A DNA stretch of 32,488 nucleotides, from NCBI GenBank assembly GCA_919901585.1, contig CAKKPH010000098.1, positions 1-32,488 of the forward strand, given 5' to 3'. The stretch comes from Thermodesulfovibrionales bacterium. Its GTDB lineage: Bacteria > Nitrospirota > Thermodesulfovibrionia > Thermodesulfovibrionales > UBA9159. This document shows, in pieces, positions 3,176 to 11,202 of the stretch. Within the stretch, counting starts at the first letter, position 1. Each line of letters starts with the position of its first letter. Below the pieces are notes generated by a model. That model was given only the letters and a program-made list of their open reading frames with translations. It was not told where the DNA came from and ran no database searches. A program made the translations under genes and the position numbers.

Positions 3176-3181
3176 CCATCA

Positions 3182-3223
3182 AAAAAGGTCGTTAGTCATA
3201 TAAGTCAGACTAACGACCTTTTT
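3182..3223. terminator. Probable bidirectional intrinsic terminator
   Basis: AAAAAGGTCGTTAGTC (3182-3197) and GACTAACGACCTTTTT (3208-3223) are perfect 16-bp inverted arms with A/T tracts on both sides. Confidence 0.8.
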
Positions 3224-3239
3224 ATAGCGTTTATCCTGT

Positions 3240-3440
3240 CTACTTCTTTGCGTATTTTCTCTTGAACTTCTGAACCCTTCCCTCAGCATCAACCATCTTC
3301 TGTTTGCCGGTATAGAATGGATGGCACTTTGAGCATATGTCAACATGTATAGCAGGCCTTGTTGATCTTATGGCAAATGCCTCGCCGCAGACGCATTGAA
3401 TCTTTGCCTCTTTATAGTCGGGATGTATACCTTCTTTCAA
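3240..3440 (-). CDS. rpmE: 50S ribosomal protein L31
   Basis: MKEGIHPDYKEAKIQCVCGEAF...DICSKCHPFYTGKQKMVDAEGRVQKFKRKY; Cys-containing L31. Confidence 0.95.
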   Translation of the reverse strand: MKEGIHPDYKEAKIQCVCGEAFAIRSTRPAIHVDICSKCHPFYTGKQKMVDAEGRVQKFKRKYAKK

Positions 3441-3720
3441 GTCAAGCCTCCTGAATAATTTTGTATAAGATACAAATTTATTTTAGAACATTTTAAAGTT
3501 TTTTAGCAATAGCCCTGGCCGGCAGGGTTTCTGCAGCTTTTTAGTTTTGGACAGATATGTCTTAATCTGTTAAATTAACTATAGAGGCCGCGATGAGAAG
3601 CATTGAATAGCTCAGAAGATGACAGCAGGGTGCCTGTCAGGGTAGAGACAACAGTGTCCGTAGGTTATGTAACGGCTGAACTCAAGGTGCTCGAGACAGA
3701 GAGATAGCAGGAGAACCTAT

Positions 3721-5982
3721 ATGGCTGAAAAGGATATATCCATCAAGACCGGCCTGAGCCTTTCAGACCTTAGGACATGGGACATGACCCTGCTTAATCG
3801 ATACAAGCCGCATTACCATATGGTAAATAAGGCCTGCAGCCTTTGTGCACTCGGTCCATGCGACCTCATGAATGGGAGAAGAGGAGCCTGCGGACAGGAC
3901 TTAGAGACATTCATTGCGCGCGAAGCGCTTATACTCGCTGTTACTGGCGCTGCTGCGCATGCTGCACACGCGAGGGACGTAGTGACGCGGCTTATAGAAG
4001 CTCACGGCGCAGACCTTGCCCTCGACCTCGGGGAATGGGTCAATATCCTTATGCCTATAACAGAGATTGTTTATGGTAGCCGGCCGGGACATCTCAAAGA
4101 CCTCCTCCCTGTATTAGGGTATATCGAATCTCAGATTGTAAGGCTGCTTGCATCTACCCATTTCGGAGGCGAATCATCTTCCCTTGATCTCGAAAGCAAG
4201 ATATTCCATGCAGGCACAATGGATATACTCTCGATGGAGATAGCTGAGGTCGCTCAGATATCAGGATATAAATTTCCAAAGGGTGATGCAGAAACCCCTA
4301 TGGCAACAATAGGAAGGCATGGGATATCAGGCAATAAACCTGTGATCCTCTGTATCGGCCACCATTCAGATGTCGGCTTGAGGGTGATGGATAAAGTCGA
4401 CAAGACCTGTTTGGACCATGATATAGAAGTCGCAGCCCTATGCTGCACTGCCCATGACATGGCGCGCGGAATGAGTGGTATGAGTTCTTTCACTATAATA
4501 GGCAACATAAGGGAGCAACTCAGCTTTACAAGGAGCGGACGTGCCGACATTGTCGTGGCTGACCAGCAGTGCATAAGGCATGACCTCCTTGCTGAGACAT
4601 TAAAGACAGGCGCTTTTTTTATATCAACGAGTGACCAGACATCTGCCGGCCTTCCTGATGAGACTGATATGGACATACAGGAACTTGCTACAGTGCTCAT
4701 CGACCGTCCTGTCCGCGGCGTTTTTATCTCAGACCCTGAAAAGGCTGCAGAACTTGCCGTCGCAATAGCAAAACGCTATGGTAAAATAGCAAAACCCTCA
4801 AACGGCAATGAAAACAGCCTGTGGAGATCAACGCTCACATGCAACAACTGTGGTCTCTGCACCCGCTATTGCCCTGTAAGCCTCCCTGTGTCAGATGCAG
4901 TTTTCACTGCACAGAAGTCAATCAGAGATTCAGACAATACAGGCAGTGAAATGCCTGCCTCTGCTGTTAAGACGTTTGACGGCATTTATGATAAATGCCT
5001 CCTCTGCGGCCGCTGTGATTCTGCATGTCCAGGGCAGATACCTGTGATGTCCCTTATAGAATCTTCATATAAGACAAACGACAAGCGAGCGGAGAGAATG
5101 ATGAGGATAGGGAGGGGGCCGATTGATGACTACGAGATAAAGAGTACAGGGCCTTCAATAGTGCTTGGAGACATCCCCGGTGTAGTTGCCTTCCTTACAT
5201 GCCCTGAATATCCTGACGGCAGGGAAGCAGTGTCATGGATGGCAGACACCCTTGCCCAAAACGGGTATATTGTCCTTGCAGCAGGATGCACTGCCATGGA
5301 CATGGCAACTGGCGATAACAATGTTTATCTCAAGTTTCCCGGGACCTTTGATATGGGAAGCATTATAAACACAGGCTCATGCGTCTCTTCTTCGCATGCA
5401 ATAGGTGCTCTTATAAAGATCGCATCCATCTTCCTTCACAGGCGTCTTGACAGGAATCATGAAGAGATAGCCGACTATATACTCAACCGTATTGGTGCTA
5501 CGGGTGTGCTCTGGGGGGGCATAACACCCAAGAGCTTCTCTGCATCCGCAGGAGCTAATCGCCTCGGGATCCCTGTGATATTCGGGCCTCAGGGCAAAAA
5601 GTTCAGGAGGACACTTGAAGGTAACCCTGATGCAGACGGAGTCTTTGATTCGAGAACCGGCCGAAAGATGCAATCCGGACTAATGCCCCCGCATCTTTCG
5701 GTAGTTGCGAATACTAAGGAGGAGGCGCTTGTAGAGATAGTGCGGCTCTGCATCAGGCCGAATGACACAACAAAGGGCCGCCGTACAAAACTCAGCAATT
5801 ATCTCAGGCTCTCAAAATCTTTTTTTGGGGCTATCCCTCATGACCTTGCCAATTTTGTAAGGGTGGCTGACGACCTGCCTGATGAATCGAGGGATGAGCT
5901 TATGGCTTTCCTCAAGTCCAACAATTGGCAGGCCTCCTTCATACCTGATCCTACACTGCTCCGGAGGCTTGTGAGAAGATGA
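3721..5982 (+). CDS. CdhA-type (ACDS alpha-subunit-like) carbon monoxide dehydrogenase
   Basis: N-terminal CSLCALGPCDLMNGRRGACG cluster, two internal 4Fe-4S motifs (CNNCGLCTRYCP, CLLCGRCDSACP), and candidate C-cluster ligand motifs GHH, LCCTAHD, DQQCIRHD, LTCPEYPD, AAGCTAMDMA and NTGSCVSSSHA. The C-terminal half resembles archaeal CdhA. SD-like GCAGGAG precedes the ATG. Confidence 0.88.
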   Translation: MAEKDISIKTGLSLSDLRTWDMTLLNRYKPHYHMVNKACSLCALGPCDLMNGRRGACGQDLETFIAREALILAVTGAAAHAAHARDVVTRLIEAHGADLALDLGEWVNILMPITEIVYGSRPGHLKDLLPVLGYIESQIVRLLASTHFGGESSSLDLESKIFHAGTMDILSMEIAEVAQISGYKFPKGDAETPMATIGRHGISGNKPVILCIGHHSDVGLRVMDKVDKTCLDHDIEVAALCCTAHDMARGMSGMSSFTIIGNIREQLSFTRSGRADIVVADQQCIRHDLLAETLKTGAFFISTSDQTSAGLPDETDMDIQELATVLIDRPVRGVFISDPEKAAELAVAIAKRYGKIAKPSNGNENSLWRSTLTCNNCGLCTRYCPVSLPVSDAVFTAQKSIRDSDNTGSEMPASAVKTFDGIYDKCLLCGRCDSACPGQIPVMSLIESSYKTNDKRAERMMRIGRGPIDDYEIKSTGPSIVLGDIPGVVAFLTCPEYPDGREAVSWMADTLAQNGYIVLAAGCTAMDMATGDNNVYLKFPGTFDMGSIINTGSCVSSSHAIGALIKIASIFLHRRLDRNHEEIADYILNRIGATGVLWGGITPKSFSASAGANRLGIPVIFGPQGKKFRRTLEGNPDADGVFDSRTGRKMQSGLMPPHLSVVANTKEEALVEIVRLCIRPNDTTKGRRTKLSNYLRLSKSFFGAIPHDLANFVRVADDLPDESRDELMAFLKSNNWQASFIPDPTLLRRLVRR

Positions 5983-7112
5983 AAACAGAGTCAGGCAATC
6001 CCTCTGACAAGACCCTCAAAAAAGAAGACCTATTCCGTTATCTTAGGGATCCCTCGCTTGTTTCAGGGCTTGCTGATGCTATCAGGGCAGAGATGCCGCG
6101 CAACAGGCATATCAAGGTTATGCATGTCTGCGGCTCGCATGAACATTCTGTCCAACGGTGGGGGCTGCGGGGCCTGCTGCCTGAGGACCTCGAGATAGTT
6201 GCCGGCCCCGGATGCCCTGTCTGTATCTGTCCGGCCTTTGAGATAGGGGAGGCCATTTCGCTTGCAAGGGAAGGTGTTATAATCGCAACTTATGGCGACA
6301 TGGTCAGGGTGCCTACTCCTTATGGCTCTCTGATGAAGGAGAAGGCTGGAGGCGCCGGCATACAGGTTATATACAGCCCTATGGATGCTGTGGCAACTGC
6401 GAGGAATAATCCTGACAAAGAGGTAGTCTTCTTCTCAGTAGGCTTCGAGACAACAGTCGCACCTGCAGCTGCGCTCGTCGTGCGGGGAGACCTGCCTGAT
6501 AATTTTTCTTTGCTGACCTCTCACCGCCTCACCCCTCCTGCGATGGAATTGCTGCTCGGCATCGGAGATGTCCATATAGACGGTTTTATAGCCCCCGGGC
6601 ATGTATCTGTAATAGTCGGCTCAGAGGCCTGGGGGGTATTTCCGAGGGCCTACAACATGCCTGTAGCTGTTGCAGGGTTCGAGCCTGCGAATATCCTCTT
6701 CGGCCTCCTTATGTTATTAAGGCAGATAAAAAACGGGGAAGCCCGCCTCGATAACACTTACACTCAGGTTGTCCGGCCTGAAGGCAACCCTGTTGCGCTC
6801 AAGGCGATAGAAAAGGCCTTTGATGTAGTCCCTGCCTGGTGGCGGGGCATCGGGAGGGTGCCGCGTTCAGGCCTCGTTTTAAAGCCTGATTTTATAAAAG
6901 TTGACGCTCGGAAAAAGTTTGGGATAGCTGCCTCTCCGGAGAGGACTGAACTGCCTCCGGGCTGCTCGTGCCATCTTGTGATGCTCGGCAAGATATACCC
7001 ATCATCGTGCCCGCTCTTCAACAATAAATGCACGCCGGAAACCCCATACGGCCCGTGCATGGTCTCGCAGGAAGGCACCTGCCTGATATGGTCAAAATTC
7101 GGCACAGCTTAG
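5979..7112 (+). CDS. hypD: Hydrogenase maturation factor HypD
   Basis: MHVCGSHEHSVQRWGLRGLLP, GPGCPVCICP, FETTVAP, IAPGHVSVIVG, and C-terminal CSCHLVMLGKIYPSSCPLFNNKCTPETPYGPCMVSQEGTC; ATGA overlap with the CODH gene. Confidence 0.95.
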   Translation: MKTESGNPSDKTLKKEDLFRYLRDPSLVSGLADAIRAEMPRNRHIKVMHVCGSHEHSVQRWGLRGLLPEDLEIVAGPGCPVCICPAFEIGEAISLAREGVIIATYGDMVRVPTPYGSLMKEKAGGAGIQVIYSPMDAVATARNNPDKEVVFFSVGFETTVAPAAALVVRGDLPDNFSLLTSHRLTPPAMELLLGIGDVHIDGFIAPGHVSVIVGSEAWGVFPRAYNMPVAVAGFEPANILFGLLMLLRQIKNGEARLDNTYTQVVRPEGNPVALKAIEKAFDVVPAWWRGIGRVPRSGLVLKPDFIKVDARKKFGIAASPERTELPPGCSCHLVMLGKIYPSSCPLFNNKCTPETPYGPCMVSQEGTCLIWSKFGTA

Positions 7113-7164
7113 CAATATTAAATGTCTGTCTCTCCAGAGCTGCTCCGGCTTCAAGACATATATT

Positions 7165-9702
7165 TTATTTTTTATTCTTTATTCTTGAATTCCACAACTG
7201 ATAAAAGAGATCGATTTCCTCTTTCGCCGAATCGAGGAATTCTATCCTTGCTTCTGCGTCTCCCTTTAGGCGTAAAAGCTCGCCTTTTATCTCATCAAAC
7301 AGCGAGCGGTAAGCATTAGCAACCCTGTTTATCTCTTCCGACATCCTGTCGTTCAGGTCATTAATCTGCACCTGCAGATACTTCATCATGCGGTTGCCCT
7401 GTTCTGACATCATCATCTTGACAGCCTCATCAAGATTCTCCCGGACAAGCGAAAGTGCCTTTTTGAGTTCTACCTTTTCAAATACAAGCTTCATGGTCTT
7501 CCTTTTAATAACCCCCAATGAAAGCACCATAATCAATATGCCCGGGAAGTTCCTCTTTTTCACAAGTATTTCACTGAAAAGAGAGGGATCGAATATTTTG
7601 TCCAGCGCGAACAGCATGGGCCGAAAGTCGAATTTACTGAAAGAGGGATGCAGTCTGAGCAGTTTTGTGACAACCTGTTTTTTCTTGTCTTTTAAATATC
7701 TGTTGTATTCTGTAATCTTCGCCTGCGCTGCCGCGTCGTATTCCTGAAGTATCTTTTCCCTGTTGCTGACATCGCTGTTTATTAGCCTCTCATGTTTCGC
7801 CATAACATTGACGTAGTTTTTCTCCAACACGCTTGTCTTTGTCTCGTCGGTTATCTTGTCAACACCGTTTAAGCCGGAACCATTATGGAGTACTGCTAAT
7901 TCGTCCTGAGCGAGAGATGACAATAACTTTGTGAGTAGCCTGATCATATTGTTCATATGTATGTTGGTAATAAGGACCATAGATTTATCTGCCAGGTTTA
8001 TATCCCTCTTTATTCCCTGCATTCTTTCTATAGACCCTGATTTTTCAGCTATCCCGCGTATCAGGCCTTCGCAAAATTGCTCGATGTCGGCTATCTTCTT
8101 CTGTAGTTCATCCCTCTCCTTACTGAACTCAGTCAGTCGCGATAATATATGAGTCTCTTTAAGCCGTGCGAGTTTCTTGTCAACAAGTGTCATCTTATGA
8201 TTGAAAAGCTCGATCGCAGCCTTTTCTGTAGCAATGTAATTAATATATTTCTTAAGCTGTTCAACCCCGCTCTTCTCCCTCAGGGTCTTCAGCGTCGCAT
8301 TTTGATCTCCGTGAAACCAGCGGAGATTTCTGATCTGGCCGTCGATGAACGACAGGGTCGTCATCGCCTCCTTCCCCTGATAGCGCTCGAGCAAAGCATT
8401 AATACAGATGCGGAACGCCTCTCCATCGTCGGTATTCAGGTCAGCGCATTCCTTTATAGTCAGGACCTTTTGAGCATAAAAATACTGCAGGGCCGAAATC
8501 CCGAGGACAATGAATCCGCTATATCCCAAGGTCTTGAGCCTTGATCTCAGAAAATCAATAAACCTGACGGCAGACTTCTTCTCTTCACTCAGGTACATGA
8601 GGTCAAGCTTGTTGACCACTACTATGAAGGAATATATCTTGTTATGCGCTTCAAAGGCTGTCTTTATATCCCTGAAAAACTGCTCCTCGCTCGTGGTAAG
8701 GTACTTCGTATAATCGACAATAAAGAGCACTACATCTGCCTCGCCTATCCACTTGTACGCAATCTTTTTATGGGCACTACCGGCAAGGTCAGGTCCCGGG
8801 GTATCAATAATGGTGTAATCGCAAGGGCTGCCATCAATGGAGGCATAGTTAATCTCCATGTCATCAAGCACACATATGCCCTTGTTGTCCGCATGCGCAT
8901 TTTTAAACTCTTCGAGTATGTAGTCTTTAACCTCCGAGGGTTTCCTGAAATGGATATATTTATTCTGATACTTGAGTGATATTTTGTTGTCTTTACTCCT
9001 TGTGTAAATACAGGAATTGAACGTAGGAAGCTCTATGCTCGCAGGTGCATACTCGGTACCTAAAAAACAGTTCACCAGGACGCTTTTCCCGGACTTCTTC
9101 AGGGCCATTATAGCAACCTTCAGACTCCTGCGGTTCATCTCCATCAGAAGAGAGCCGATATCCGACAAGGCAGCCGAGATATCATAGCAGTCTCTTTTGG
9201 CTATATGGCTCCATTCTGCATTGCATATCTTTTCCTTTGTCTCTTTTAGTTTTTCCGAGACCTCACTGAACCTCTCACTGAAAATCTCCATCTCCCTTCT
9301 TGCAAGCTCTTCGCTCTTGAACATAACCTGTATGTCTATATCGAGATAGAGGAGGTTCTGGATTACCTCGCTAAGGATATCTTTATCCTCTGTATCGAGG
9401 ACAAGCCTGTAATTTGAAATATTGTTCTCATCGATGTAACCCGTCAGCTCGCTTAAGCTCTTAGGTCTCAGCAGGATACTTTCGGTCTCCCTGTCTTTAA
9501 GGCATGCTTCAAAGTTGAATAATATCTCTCTTGCGACCCTGATTTTATGAATGGAATTTCCGTCAACACCTGAGTTGTCTATAAACTGAAAGATGGGGGT
9601 ATCGTCCTGCAGGATTATCTTTTTATTCAATAAGGGGAAGGAAGCCTCTTTGCTGGACTTTTTCTGGATATAAAGCGCACCTTTTATCTTAAGGGTGTCC
9701 AT
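7165..9702 (-). CDS. Dynamin-like large GTPase
   Basis: 845 aa; G1-like ALKKSGKSVLVN, G3 DTPGPDLAG, G4 NKLD, long helical C-terminal region with a hydrophobic stretch (FPGILIMVLSLGVI). Confidence 0.8.
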   Translation of the reverse strand: MDTLKIKGALYIQKKSSKEASFPLLNKKIILQDDTPIFQFIDNSGVDGNSIHKIRVAREILFNFEACLKDRETESILLRPKSLSELTGYIDENNISNYRLVLDTEDKDILSEVIQNLLYLDIDIQVMFKSEELARREMEIFSERFSEVSEKLKETKEKICNAEWSHIAKRDCYDISAALSDIGSLLMEMNRRSLKVAIMALKKSGKSVLVNCFLGTEYAPASIELPTFNSCIYTRSKDNKISLKYQNKYIHFRKPSEVKDYILEEFKNAHADNKGICVLDDMEINYASIDGSPCDYTIIDTPGPDLAGSAHKKIAYKWIGEADVVLFIVDYTKYLTTSEEQFFRDIKTAFEAHNKIYSFIVVVNKLDLMYLSEEKKSAVRFIDFLRSRLKTLGYSGFIVLGISALQYFYAQKVLTIKECADLNTDDGEAFRICINALLERYQGKEAMTTLSFIDGQIRNLRWFHGDQNATLKTLREKSGVEQLKKYINYIATEKAAIELFNHKMTLVDKKLARLKETHILSRLTEFSKERDELQKKIADIEQFCEGLIRGIAEKSGSIERMQGIKRDINLADKSMVLITNIHMNNMIRLLTKLLSSLAQDELAVLHNGSGLNGVDKITDETKTSVLEKNYVNVMAKHERLINSDVSNREKILQEYDAAAQAKITEYNRYLKDKKKQVVTKLLRLHPSFSKFDFRPMLFALDKIFDPSLFSEILVKKRNFPGILIMVLSLGVIKRKTMKLVFEKVELKKALSLVRENLDEAVKMMMSEQGNRMMKYLQVQINDLNDRMSEEINRVANAYRSLFDEIKGELLRLKGDAEARIEFLDSAKEEIDLFYQLWNSRIKNKK

Positions 9703-9843
9703 GCTCTCTGCCTCCAGGTCATTATAGATTATACTTTATCACAAGAGGACGCCAAAAATCTTTTCTTGTCAATCCGTTGCAGGATGGGTATATATTTTGC
9801 TGTCATACCCATTGAGGCATGAAAAAAGGATGCAATTATACTG

Positions 9844-11106
9844 CTACACGCCGGGGAAATATTTTGAGATTACCCTGTCGAGGGTCTCCTCAAGAACACT
9901 GTCTTCAGCACCGGAGATCTCATGATAGAGCTGCTCTGATATCCTGGCAAAGGCGTCAAGGAGTCCGGAGTCAAAGTGCGTGCCTCTGTTTTCTTCGAGT
10001 ATGCTGATTGTCTTCTCGTAAGAAAAAGGCTCTTTGTAGGGCCGCCTGGAGGTAAGGGCGTCGAAATAATCGGCTATTGCAAAGATCCTCGCATTAATGG
10101 GTATGTCATTGCCCCTGAGCGCTGTTGTGTACCCGCTGCCGTCAAATTTTTCGTGGTGGTACTTGACAACATCCATGGCGTCACTTAGCCATTTATATCT
10201 GTCGATGATATCCACCCCGTGCCGGACATGGTCTTTCATTATCTCAAACTCTTCATTGCTCAGTTTGCCGGGCTTGAGCAGGATTGTATCACTTACGCCG
10301 ATCTTGCCGACATCATGCAGGAAAGCGCCCTTAATGAGGGCCCTCATCCTTTCACTGCTAAGCCCTGTAGTCTCTGCAAGACGCACTGCATAGAGCGTCA
10401 CCCTGAAGTTGTGCGTATGCGTATCACTGTCTCTCTTGGAGATGGCCCCGCCAAGGACCTTGAGCATCCCGATGTTCGCCCTTGAGAGGTCGACAGAGAG
10501 GTTTATGAGGTCCTTGTTAAGCGCAAGGATCACCGGATAGAACAGTATGGTGGTGGCAGAAACCACGATTACCACGAGGCCGAGAGACCAGAGGATATTC
10601 TCTGTAATGCCTTTCATTGTGTTGTCATCGACCTTATAGACACCCTCAAAATACCCGGAAATTGCGGAATTATCGGCTTTAAGCGGCACAAAAACCTGAA
10701 GATAGATCCTCCGGCCTATAAAGAACCTCTCATAACTCACAGCGTCTCCCATATGCAAGTCATGGCTGTATTTATTCAGTACTTCTTCTACATGTTCGCT
10801 CTCGGGCTTGACGGTCTCGACAACCTTTTGCCTTGTCTTGTCATAGAGCTCTACGATAATAAAATGCCCTCTTGCTATATGCTGCATGCTCTGTTCAGCG
10901 AGGTGACCTCTATTCTCCTCTGTTATGCTGCGGTAACCGGCCTGAGAGCCGGTAAAGGTCTTTGACTCTTCGAGTGCGAGGGTTTCTACAAAGACATCAA
11001 TTTTTTCCATTTCGACAAAGAAGACTATTGTTCCTATCAGGAGAGAAAGGATCAGCCATCCGAGGGCAAGTCTTTTTATCAGTCTTATGTGAATATTCTT
11101 CCGCAT
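9844..11106 (-). CDS. Membrane-anchored HD-GYP domain protein (putative c-di-GMP phosphodiesterase)
   Basis: N-terminal TM and extracytoplasmic region, second TM, then HDVGKIGV...KDHVRHG...YHHEKFDGSGY...ARIFAIADYFDALTSRRPYKEP. Confidence 0.88.
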   Translation of the reverse strand: MRKNIHIRLIKRLALGWLILSLLIGTIVFFVEMEKIDVFVETLALEESKTFTGSQAGYRSITEENRGHLAEQSMQHIARGHFIIVELYDKTRQKVVETVKPESEHVEEVLNKYSHDLHMGDAVSYERFFIGRRIYLQVFVPLKADNSAISGYFEGVYKVDDNTMKGITENILWSLGLVVIVVSATTILFYPVILALNKDLINLSVDLSRANIGMLKVLGGAISKRDSDTHTHNFRVTLYAVRLAETTGLSSERMRALIKGAFLHDVGKIGVSDTILLKPGKLSNEEFEIMKDHVRHGVDIIDRYKWLSDAMDVVKYHHEKFDGSGYTTALRGNDIPINARIFAIADYFDALTSRRPYKEPFSYEKTISILEENRGTHFDSGLLDAFARISEQLYHEISGAEDSVLEETLDRVISKYFPGV

Positions 11107-11202
11107 CTTAATATCCTGTCGATCTTATTATGTTTATGAGGTCTTCAGCCCTTCCTGTTGTCCTTATCTTGAACGGGTCCGGGCAACCCTGAATTTCACA
11201 AA

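Follow-up and report, generated by a model that had tools for sequence, protein, structure and literature searches.

The HypC-HypD scaffold of [NiFe] hydrogenase maturation has been shown to bind the iron that receives the carbon monoxide (CO) and cyanide ligands, and the source of this CO in anaerobes is unsettled (PMC4161419, PMC12134894). In R. eutropha, about 10 nM of exogenous CO was enough for ligand formation, and incorporation of CO took place under anoxia (PMC12134894). In aerobes, the CO donor is HypX, a formyl-tetrahydrofolate/formyl-CoA decarbonylase. The stretch of DNA considered here, referred to as the window, comprises 32,488 nucleotides of contig CAKKPH010000098.1 (C98) from a Thermodesulfovibrionales bacterium of the phylum Nitrospirota (assembly GCA_919901585.1, labelled G000; 2.05 Mb, 95 percent complete). 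It carries a gene of a cdhA-type nickel-containing CO dehydrogenase (CODH) at 3721-5982 (753 aa), which is followed by hypD at 5979-7112 (377 aa), with the stop and start codons overlapping in ATGA at 5979-5982 as expected of translational coupling; these and all further features of the pair lie on the forward strand. The pair is probably a module for the CO ligand in the maturation of [NiFe] hydrogenases, in which a dedicated CODH would reduce CO2 to CO for HypC-HypD.

Both open reading frames and the overlap between them had been pointed out in an earlier note made from the sequence alone, and the family models and the solved structures agree with these assignments. The first ATG of the CODH is preceded by AGGAG, a plausible ribosome-binding site, and no RNA element was found 5' of the pair in the Rfam search. 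The CODH matched the model TIGR00314 (cdhA) with 741 bits (E 1e-222), under the equivalog cut-off of 781.3, as was the case for its counterpart in the genome G246 (638 bits). Among the PDB entries, the CdhA chains 8riu (E 1.7e-171) and 3cf4 were matched, and the AlphaFold (AF2) model, with a mean predicted local distance difference test (pLDDT) value of 89.9, was superposed on 8riu_A and 3cf4_A with template modelling (TM) scores of 0.92-0.93. HypD exceeded the cut-offs of its families, with 404 bits for TIGR00075 (cut-off 193) and 442 bits for PF01924. No genes for the other subunits of acetyl-CoA decarbonylase/synthase (ACDS; cdhB, C, D, E), no cooC, no other hyp genes and no hydrogenase genes were present among the annotated genes of the window, of which the region from ~19 kb is only partly annotated, and the earlier note had described the window in the same way.

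The survey for the pair covered 100 relatives and, by rank, 396 genomes from the phylum, 177 from the order and 231 from the class, together with 400 Chloroflexota genomes and a GTDB-wide contig scan. In the first four sets, the CODH of this kind (hyp-linked CODH) was found only in G000, G345 and G246; the contig scan added, among the matches listed, the Chloroflexota genome G439 (locus L122), and the search within that phylum contributed G851 (locus L254), with none in 49 other genomes of the order of the latter. The clade has therefore at least five members, three in Nitrospirota and two in Chloroflexota. The earlier note had named as fatal to its idea an adjacency unique to one genome, while a hypD overlapping the 3' end of the CODH gene was found in all five known members and in both phyla, by 4 nt in the window, 20 in G345 (L032), 14 in G246 (L033) and 4 each in G439 and G851; hypD as a chance neighbour is ruled out by these five loci. 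Moreover, hypC lies directly upstream of the CODH in three of the five genomes. The gene order is hupD-hypC-CODH-hypD-hypE in G439, where the last four genes overlap by 11, 4 and 11 nt; hydS-hydL-hupD-hypA-hypF-hypC-CODH-hypD-hypE in G851; and hydS-hydL-cytochrome b-protease-hypA-hypB-hypF-hypC-CODH-hypD, with a convergent hypE, in G246. Thus, the structural hydrogenase genes share the cluster with the CODH in two of the five loci (G246, G851), whereas the CODH of G345 and that of the window genome stand apart from the hydrogenase genes and are yet coupled to hypD. No hypD was found near the ACDS-type CdhA at any of about 86 loci (78 among the matches listed from the GTDB-wide scan and 8 places in Chloroflexota), and for carriage of the pair there was no match on plasmids and none confirmed on viral contigs. 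The position of the CODH between hypC and hypD, together with hypD as its constant partner, points to the supply of CO to the scaffold.

The residues were compared in an alignment of 91 CdhA, including the five hyp-linked members and 76 archaeal CdhA. The six C-cluster ligand motifs proposed in the earlier note were recovered as H214 (4360-4362), the region C241/C242 (4441-4446), C284 (4570-4572), C494 (5200-5202), C523 (5287-5289) and C554 (5380-5382), all kept in the five members and, in the window protein, on a fold matching the solved CdhA, where the note had allowed for their loss on structural alignment. Also retained in the five are the B-cluster cysteines C39, C42, C47 and C57 (3835-3891) and the acid-base catalyst positions, H80 (3958-3960) and K604 (5530-5532), which are His and Lys in 76 of the 76 archaeal CdhA as well. 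Both cysteines of the type I D-cluster (CxxCC) are gone from every member, the window having Asn at position 36 (3826-3828, just upstream of the B-cluster stretch) and Ser at position 40, and are present in 75 and 74 of the 76 archaeal rows. The ferredoxin-like domain with two Cys4 motifs for the E and F clusters (4840-5028, by Pfam Fer4 matches) is kept in four hyp-linked CODHs and missing in that of G246. Retention of the active site with loss of the electron wiring suits a low-flux biosynthetic enzyme. By its ligands, acid-base pair, place in the tree and fold, the window CODH is classified as a predicted clade A (Cdh-type) Ni-CO dehydrogenase; by its score below the equivalog cut-off, the lack of a cdhB-E operon and the lack of the type I D-cluster, it is classified as something other than an ACDS alpha subunit.

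Four genomes, G000, G345, G246 and G439, were searched for HypD, and in each of them the paired copy is the sole one, although a [NiFe] hydrogenase and further hyp genes are present. The earlier note had asked whether a second paralogue stands beside a canonical hyp set; in the window genome the hydrogenase was found on C214, hypC-hypE-hypF on C210 and hypA-hypB on C75, with no second hypD. In same-family genomes, hypD lies within hypA-B-F-D-E and such a CODH is absent, while the hypC-hypE-hypF cluster of G000 is without hypD; G369, of the genus of G345, has retained the canonical hypA-B-F-C-D-E cluster. With the paired HypD as the sole copy in G000 and G345 and the canonical gene in their relatives, the CODH-hypD pair seems to have taken the place of the latter in these two genomes. 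The window HypD keeps the conserved cysteines C51, C79, C82, C329, C344, C351 and C368, and carries a signature of the CODH-paired HypDs, H332 (6972-6974), next to Cys331 in the Cys-rich C-terminal region, by the [4Fe-4S] site: this position is His in five of five paired and Gly in 86 of 86 unpaired HypDs. In the tree of the 91 CdhA, the hyp-linked CODHs group together as a single clade inside archaeal clade A with an SH-like approximate likelihood ratio test (SH-aLRT) support of 97, a long-branch warning applying to this placement, and the paired HypDs form one clade with 100/100 support, or 95/88 once the closest unpaired sequences are included. The branching order is identical in both trees, (G246,((window,G345),(G851,G439))), and this agreement, with the fixed His332, is the pattern expected of a unit of CODH and HypD that moves and changes together.

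The relatives of both proteins outside the pair may be described here. The nearest neighbour of the hyp-linked clade in the CODH tree is a solitary CdhA from Altiarchaeota (L128:183-3072, +), which has lost one D-cluster Cys and is encoded directly 3' of a polyferredoxin gene, with no ACDS genes on its 4.6 kb contig. The nearest unpaired HypDs (L331-L335, L338; 50-53 percent identity to the window HypD) belong to other Nitrospirota families and occur with hypC-A-B-E and without CODH; an extra Cys84 is common to six unpaired HypDs, probably the same ones.

According to the proposed mechanism, the CODH would run reductively, from CO2 to CO at the C-cluster, with low-potential electrons entering via its ferredoxin-like domain, which one member has lost; traces of CO would be handed to the Fe ion that HypC and HypD hold between them, HypE and HypF would add two cyanides there, and the finished Fe(CN)2CO unit would pass to the hydrogenase large subunit. 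We infer the CODH activity, the direction of the reaction, the physical contact with HypCD and the transfer of CO from sequence and genome context, on which the proposed function rests. The earlier note had left the choice between supply of CO and its sensing or removal; the placement between hypC and hypD favours supply, and sensing or removal seems to fit it less well. Ferredoxin has a potential of about -420 mV, and with an E0' of the CO2/CO couple near -530 mV, 1 mM CO2 would then balance roughly 0.2 uM CO. This is well above the 10 nM sufficing in R. eutropha, a demand small enough for a slow, poorly wired CODH to meet; the E0' is taken from the literature (PMC12134894). The chances appear about even for a more far-reaching version, in which the anaerobic CO ligand would have, in the CODH, its first dedicated enzyme. 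This enzyme would have been taken over from the acetyl-CoA pathway of archaea with loss of the D-cluster and, once, of the ferredoxin domain, and would pass the CO made from CO2 directly to the Fe of HypC-HypD, with HypD matched to it via His332.

Several observations weigh against the supply of CO by this enzyme. Exogenous CO2 has been excluded as the direct source of CO in one aerobe (PMC12134894). The five loci represent a pair inherited as a unit and not five independent origins of the adjacency. The electron route in G246 is uncertain, its CODH being without both the D-cluster and the ferredoxin domain. The CooS-type enzymes, which might also make CO, are present in at least four carriers (G000, G345, G246, G439). 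Furthermore, HypD was found in 187 of the 231 genomes of the class and the pair in only three of them, the rest needing another source of CO; the module would thus be an alternative, one of several solutions, and not a universal one.

Two other explanations are both unlikely, and to a similar degree. Many hydrogenases are inhibited by CO, and the CODH might act as a scavenger that removes CO by oxidation to CO2 close to where maturation takes place and shields the hydrogenase or HypCD from its excess, which the complete C-cluster and the acid-base residues would permit. A CO-inhibited HypCD species has been reported (PMC4161419). However, a detoxifying enzyme needs no tie to hypD, its partner in all five genomes, while the structural hydrogenase genes are in only two of the five clusters; the loss of the D-cluster, and once also of the ferredoxin domain, suits a low flux rather than fast removal of CO, and four carriers already own CooS-type enzymes. 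Alternatively, the CODH-like protein might, through its B, E and F clusters, reduce the [4Fe-4S] cluster or the thiol pair of HypD, with CO as the fuel or with none, as the physiological electron donor of HypD is unsettled (PMC12134894), H332, specific to the pair, is adjacent to the cluster region of this protein and the two-cluster ferredoxin domain is kept in four members; but the C-cluster ligands and catalytic residues, needless for a mere electron carrier, are kept in all five, and the ferredoxin domain is the very part lost in G246. It is improbable that the CODH passes electrons from CO to the hydrogenase in a CO-linked energy metabolism, as in the complexes of CODH with the energy-converting hydrogenase (CODH/ECH): clusters of CODH with hydrogenase genes have been described, mainly for clade F (PMC6344411, PMC13056359), but the hydrogenases of G246 and G000 are of the membrane-bound uptake type, with a twin-arginine translocation (Tat)-type small subunit and cytochrome b, and not of the energy-converting group 4, the CODH of G000 and G345 stands away from the hydrogenase genes and is still coupled to hypD, and no CooF-like partner is encoded beside it. 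Least probable of all is a sensor linking HypD activity or translation to the level of CO or to redox state without making the ligand, for which speak the discussion of clade D CODHs as redox sensors (PMC13056359) and the stoichiometry that the translational overlap would set, and against which stand the complete active site and the lack of a conserved regulatory domain or a regulator gene beside the pair.

For the proposed CO-supplying module, the question of other CO-related enzymes in the carriers is also relevant. A HypX search of 11 genomes, the five carriers among them, was negative at E 1e-15. The earlier note had considered that an ACDS operon elsewhere might depend on this cdhA, while the window genome has a separate bacterial cluster of CooS and acetyl-CoA synthase (ACS) on C122, and in G851, with no CooS or ACS match, the hyp-linked CODH is the only CODH detected. 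The gene as a part of an ACDS operon is ruled out, as there is no cdhB-E among the annotated neighbours and the ACS of G000 goes with the CooS on C122. The window genome has also a CooS-type CODH beside NuoE/NuoF-like genes (L040:727-2628, +, on G000:C233), which seems to be without some of the C-cluster cysteines, GSS replacing GSC and no Cys being aligned to C241/242; a profile comparison between CdhA and this CooS covered the C-cluster region only in part and, with ligands seemingly absent from the CooS as well, does not serve as proof here. In several hyp operons of Chloroflexota (L340-L347), a gap of 1-2 kb separates hypD and hypE, and that of L344 holds a gene (8123-8977, +) for a crotonase-like protein of 284 aa, with 27 percent identity, across 161 aa, to the C-terminal portion of HypX, which is perhaps another CO-supplying enzyme encoded beside hypD.

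The pair is found within a stretch of ~8 kb (3176-11202) between DUF1385-prfA and rnfB, which has no counterpart in same-family genomes and holds, besides cdhA-hypD, a dynamin-like GTPase and an HD-domain (HD-GYP-like) gene at 7165-9702 and 9844-11106 (-). The same interval is 0.47 kb in G006 and 1.4 kb in G005, which makes entry of the pair at this position most likely. That the contig is contaminated or misbinned was considered and rejected: the window copies of prfA and rnfC share 76-81 percent identity with those of same-family genomes, in contrast to only 48-52 percent for prfA against Chloroflexota, and the gene order is common with G006 and G005.

Among the hydrogenases of the carriers, a [NiFe] large subunit was found in which an in-frame TGA stands exactly at each of the two cysteine positions of the N-terminal L1 motif (RIUGVU for RICGVC), in G000 (L230:1141-2868, -), G345 (L232:8241-9965, +) and G439 (L238:6317-8047, -). 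The TGA positions are the same in these three genomes of two phyla, while G246 and G851 have Cys there; a hairpin ~30 nt 3' of the first TGA provides weak evidence. A SelA homologue with 45 percent identity to that of E. coli is encoded in G000 (L390:14795-16135), and no tRNA-Sec was found in the 0.79 Mb examined of its 2.05 Mb. The paired TGA codons in the three genomes together with selA in G000 suggest a putative double-selenocysteine [NiFe] hydrogenase, with two selenocysteines as metal ligands.

No description of a CODH-HypD module was found in the open-access literature (subscription papers, preprints and supplements lay outside the search), in line with the earlier note, which knew of none. 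Compared with the known systems, the hyp-linked CODH is close to CdhA, the alpha subunit in archaeal ACDS (clade A; PDB 3cf4, 9c0q, 8riu), with which the window protein has in common the fold, at 34-38 percent identity by structure match, the B-cluster, the complete C-cluster, the acid-base His and Lys and the E/F ferredoxin domain; it differs by the lack of cdhB-E and of the D-cluster cysteines, by HypD as the partner and by its separate clade. Inoue et al. (2019; PMC6344411) described the group A-3 of bacterial CODHs with the full C-cluster, without the D-cluster and E/F, and not associated with ACS beta; the CODH of G246 is a candidate for this group by its description, whereas the window CODH keeps E/F. 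The latter has the residue pattern of the group A-2, without the D-cluster and with E/F, but A-2 is archaeal and ACS-associated (PMC6344411); the main text of that work, supplements aside, contains no mention of HypC or HypD and no association of A-2 or A-3 with hyp genes. The clusters of CODH/ECH with HypA/HypB (clades E and F) likewise have a Ni-CODH gene near the hydrogenase genes, but these are of the CooS type and tied to the energy-converting hydrogenase and the nickel chaperones, not to HypD (PMC6344411). With the HypC-HypD scaffold (HypD structure 2z1d), the paired HypD shares the invariant cysteines and the operon partners hypC and hypE, differing by its coupling to the CODH, by His332 in place of the invariant Gly and by its distinct clade. 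A CODH locked to HypD provides experiments on the source of the CO ligand with a definite gene, open to deletion, expression and assay, and, if the proposed function is true, the Ni-CODHs would have a role outside carbon fixation and energy metabolism, namely in the making of a metal ligand. The functional parallel would then be HypX, likewise a CO-producing enzyme encoded beside hypCDE but an unrelated protein with unrelated chemistry, so that CO-making enzymes of at least two unrelated kinds would have been recruited beside hypCDE, namely HypX and the hyp-linked CODH.

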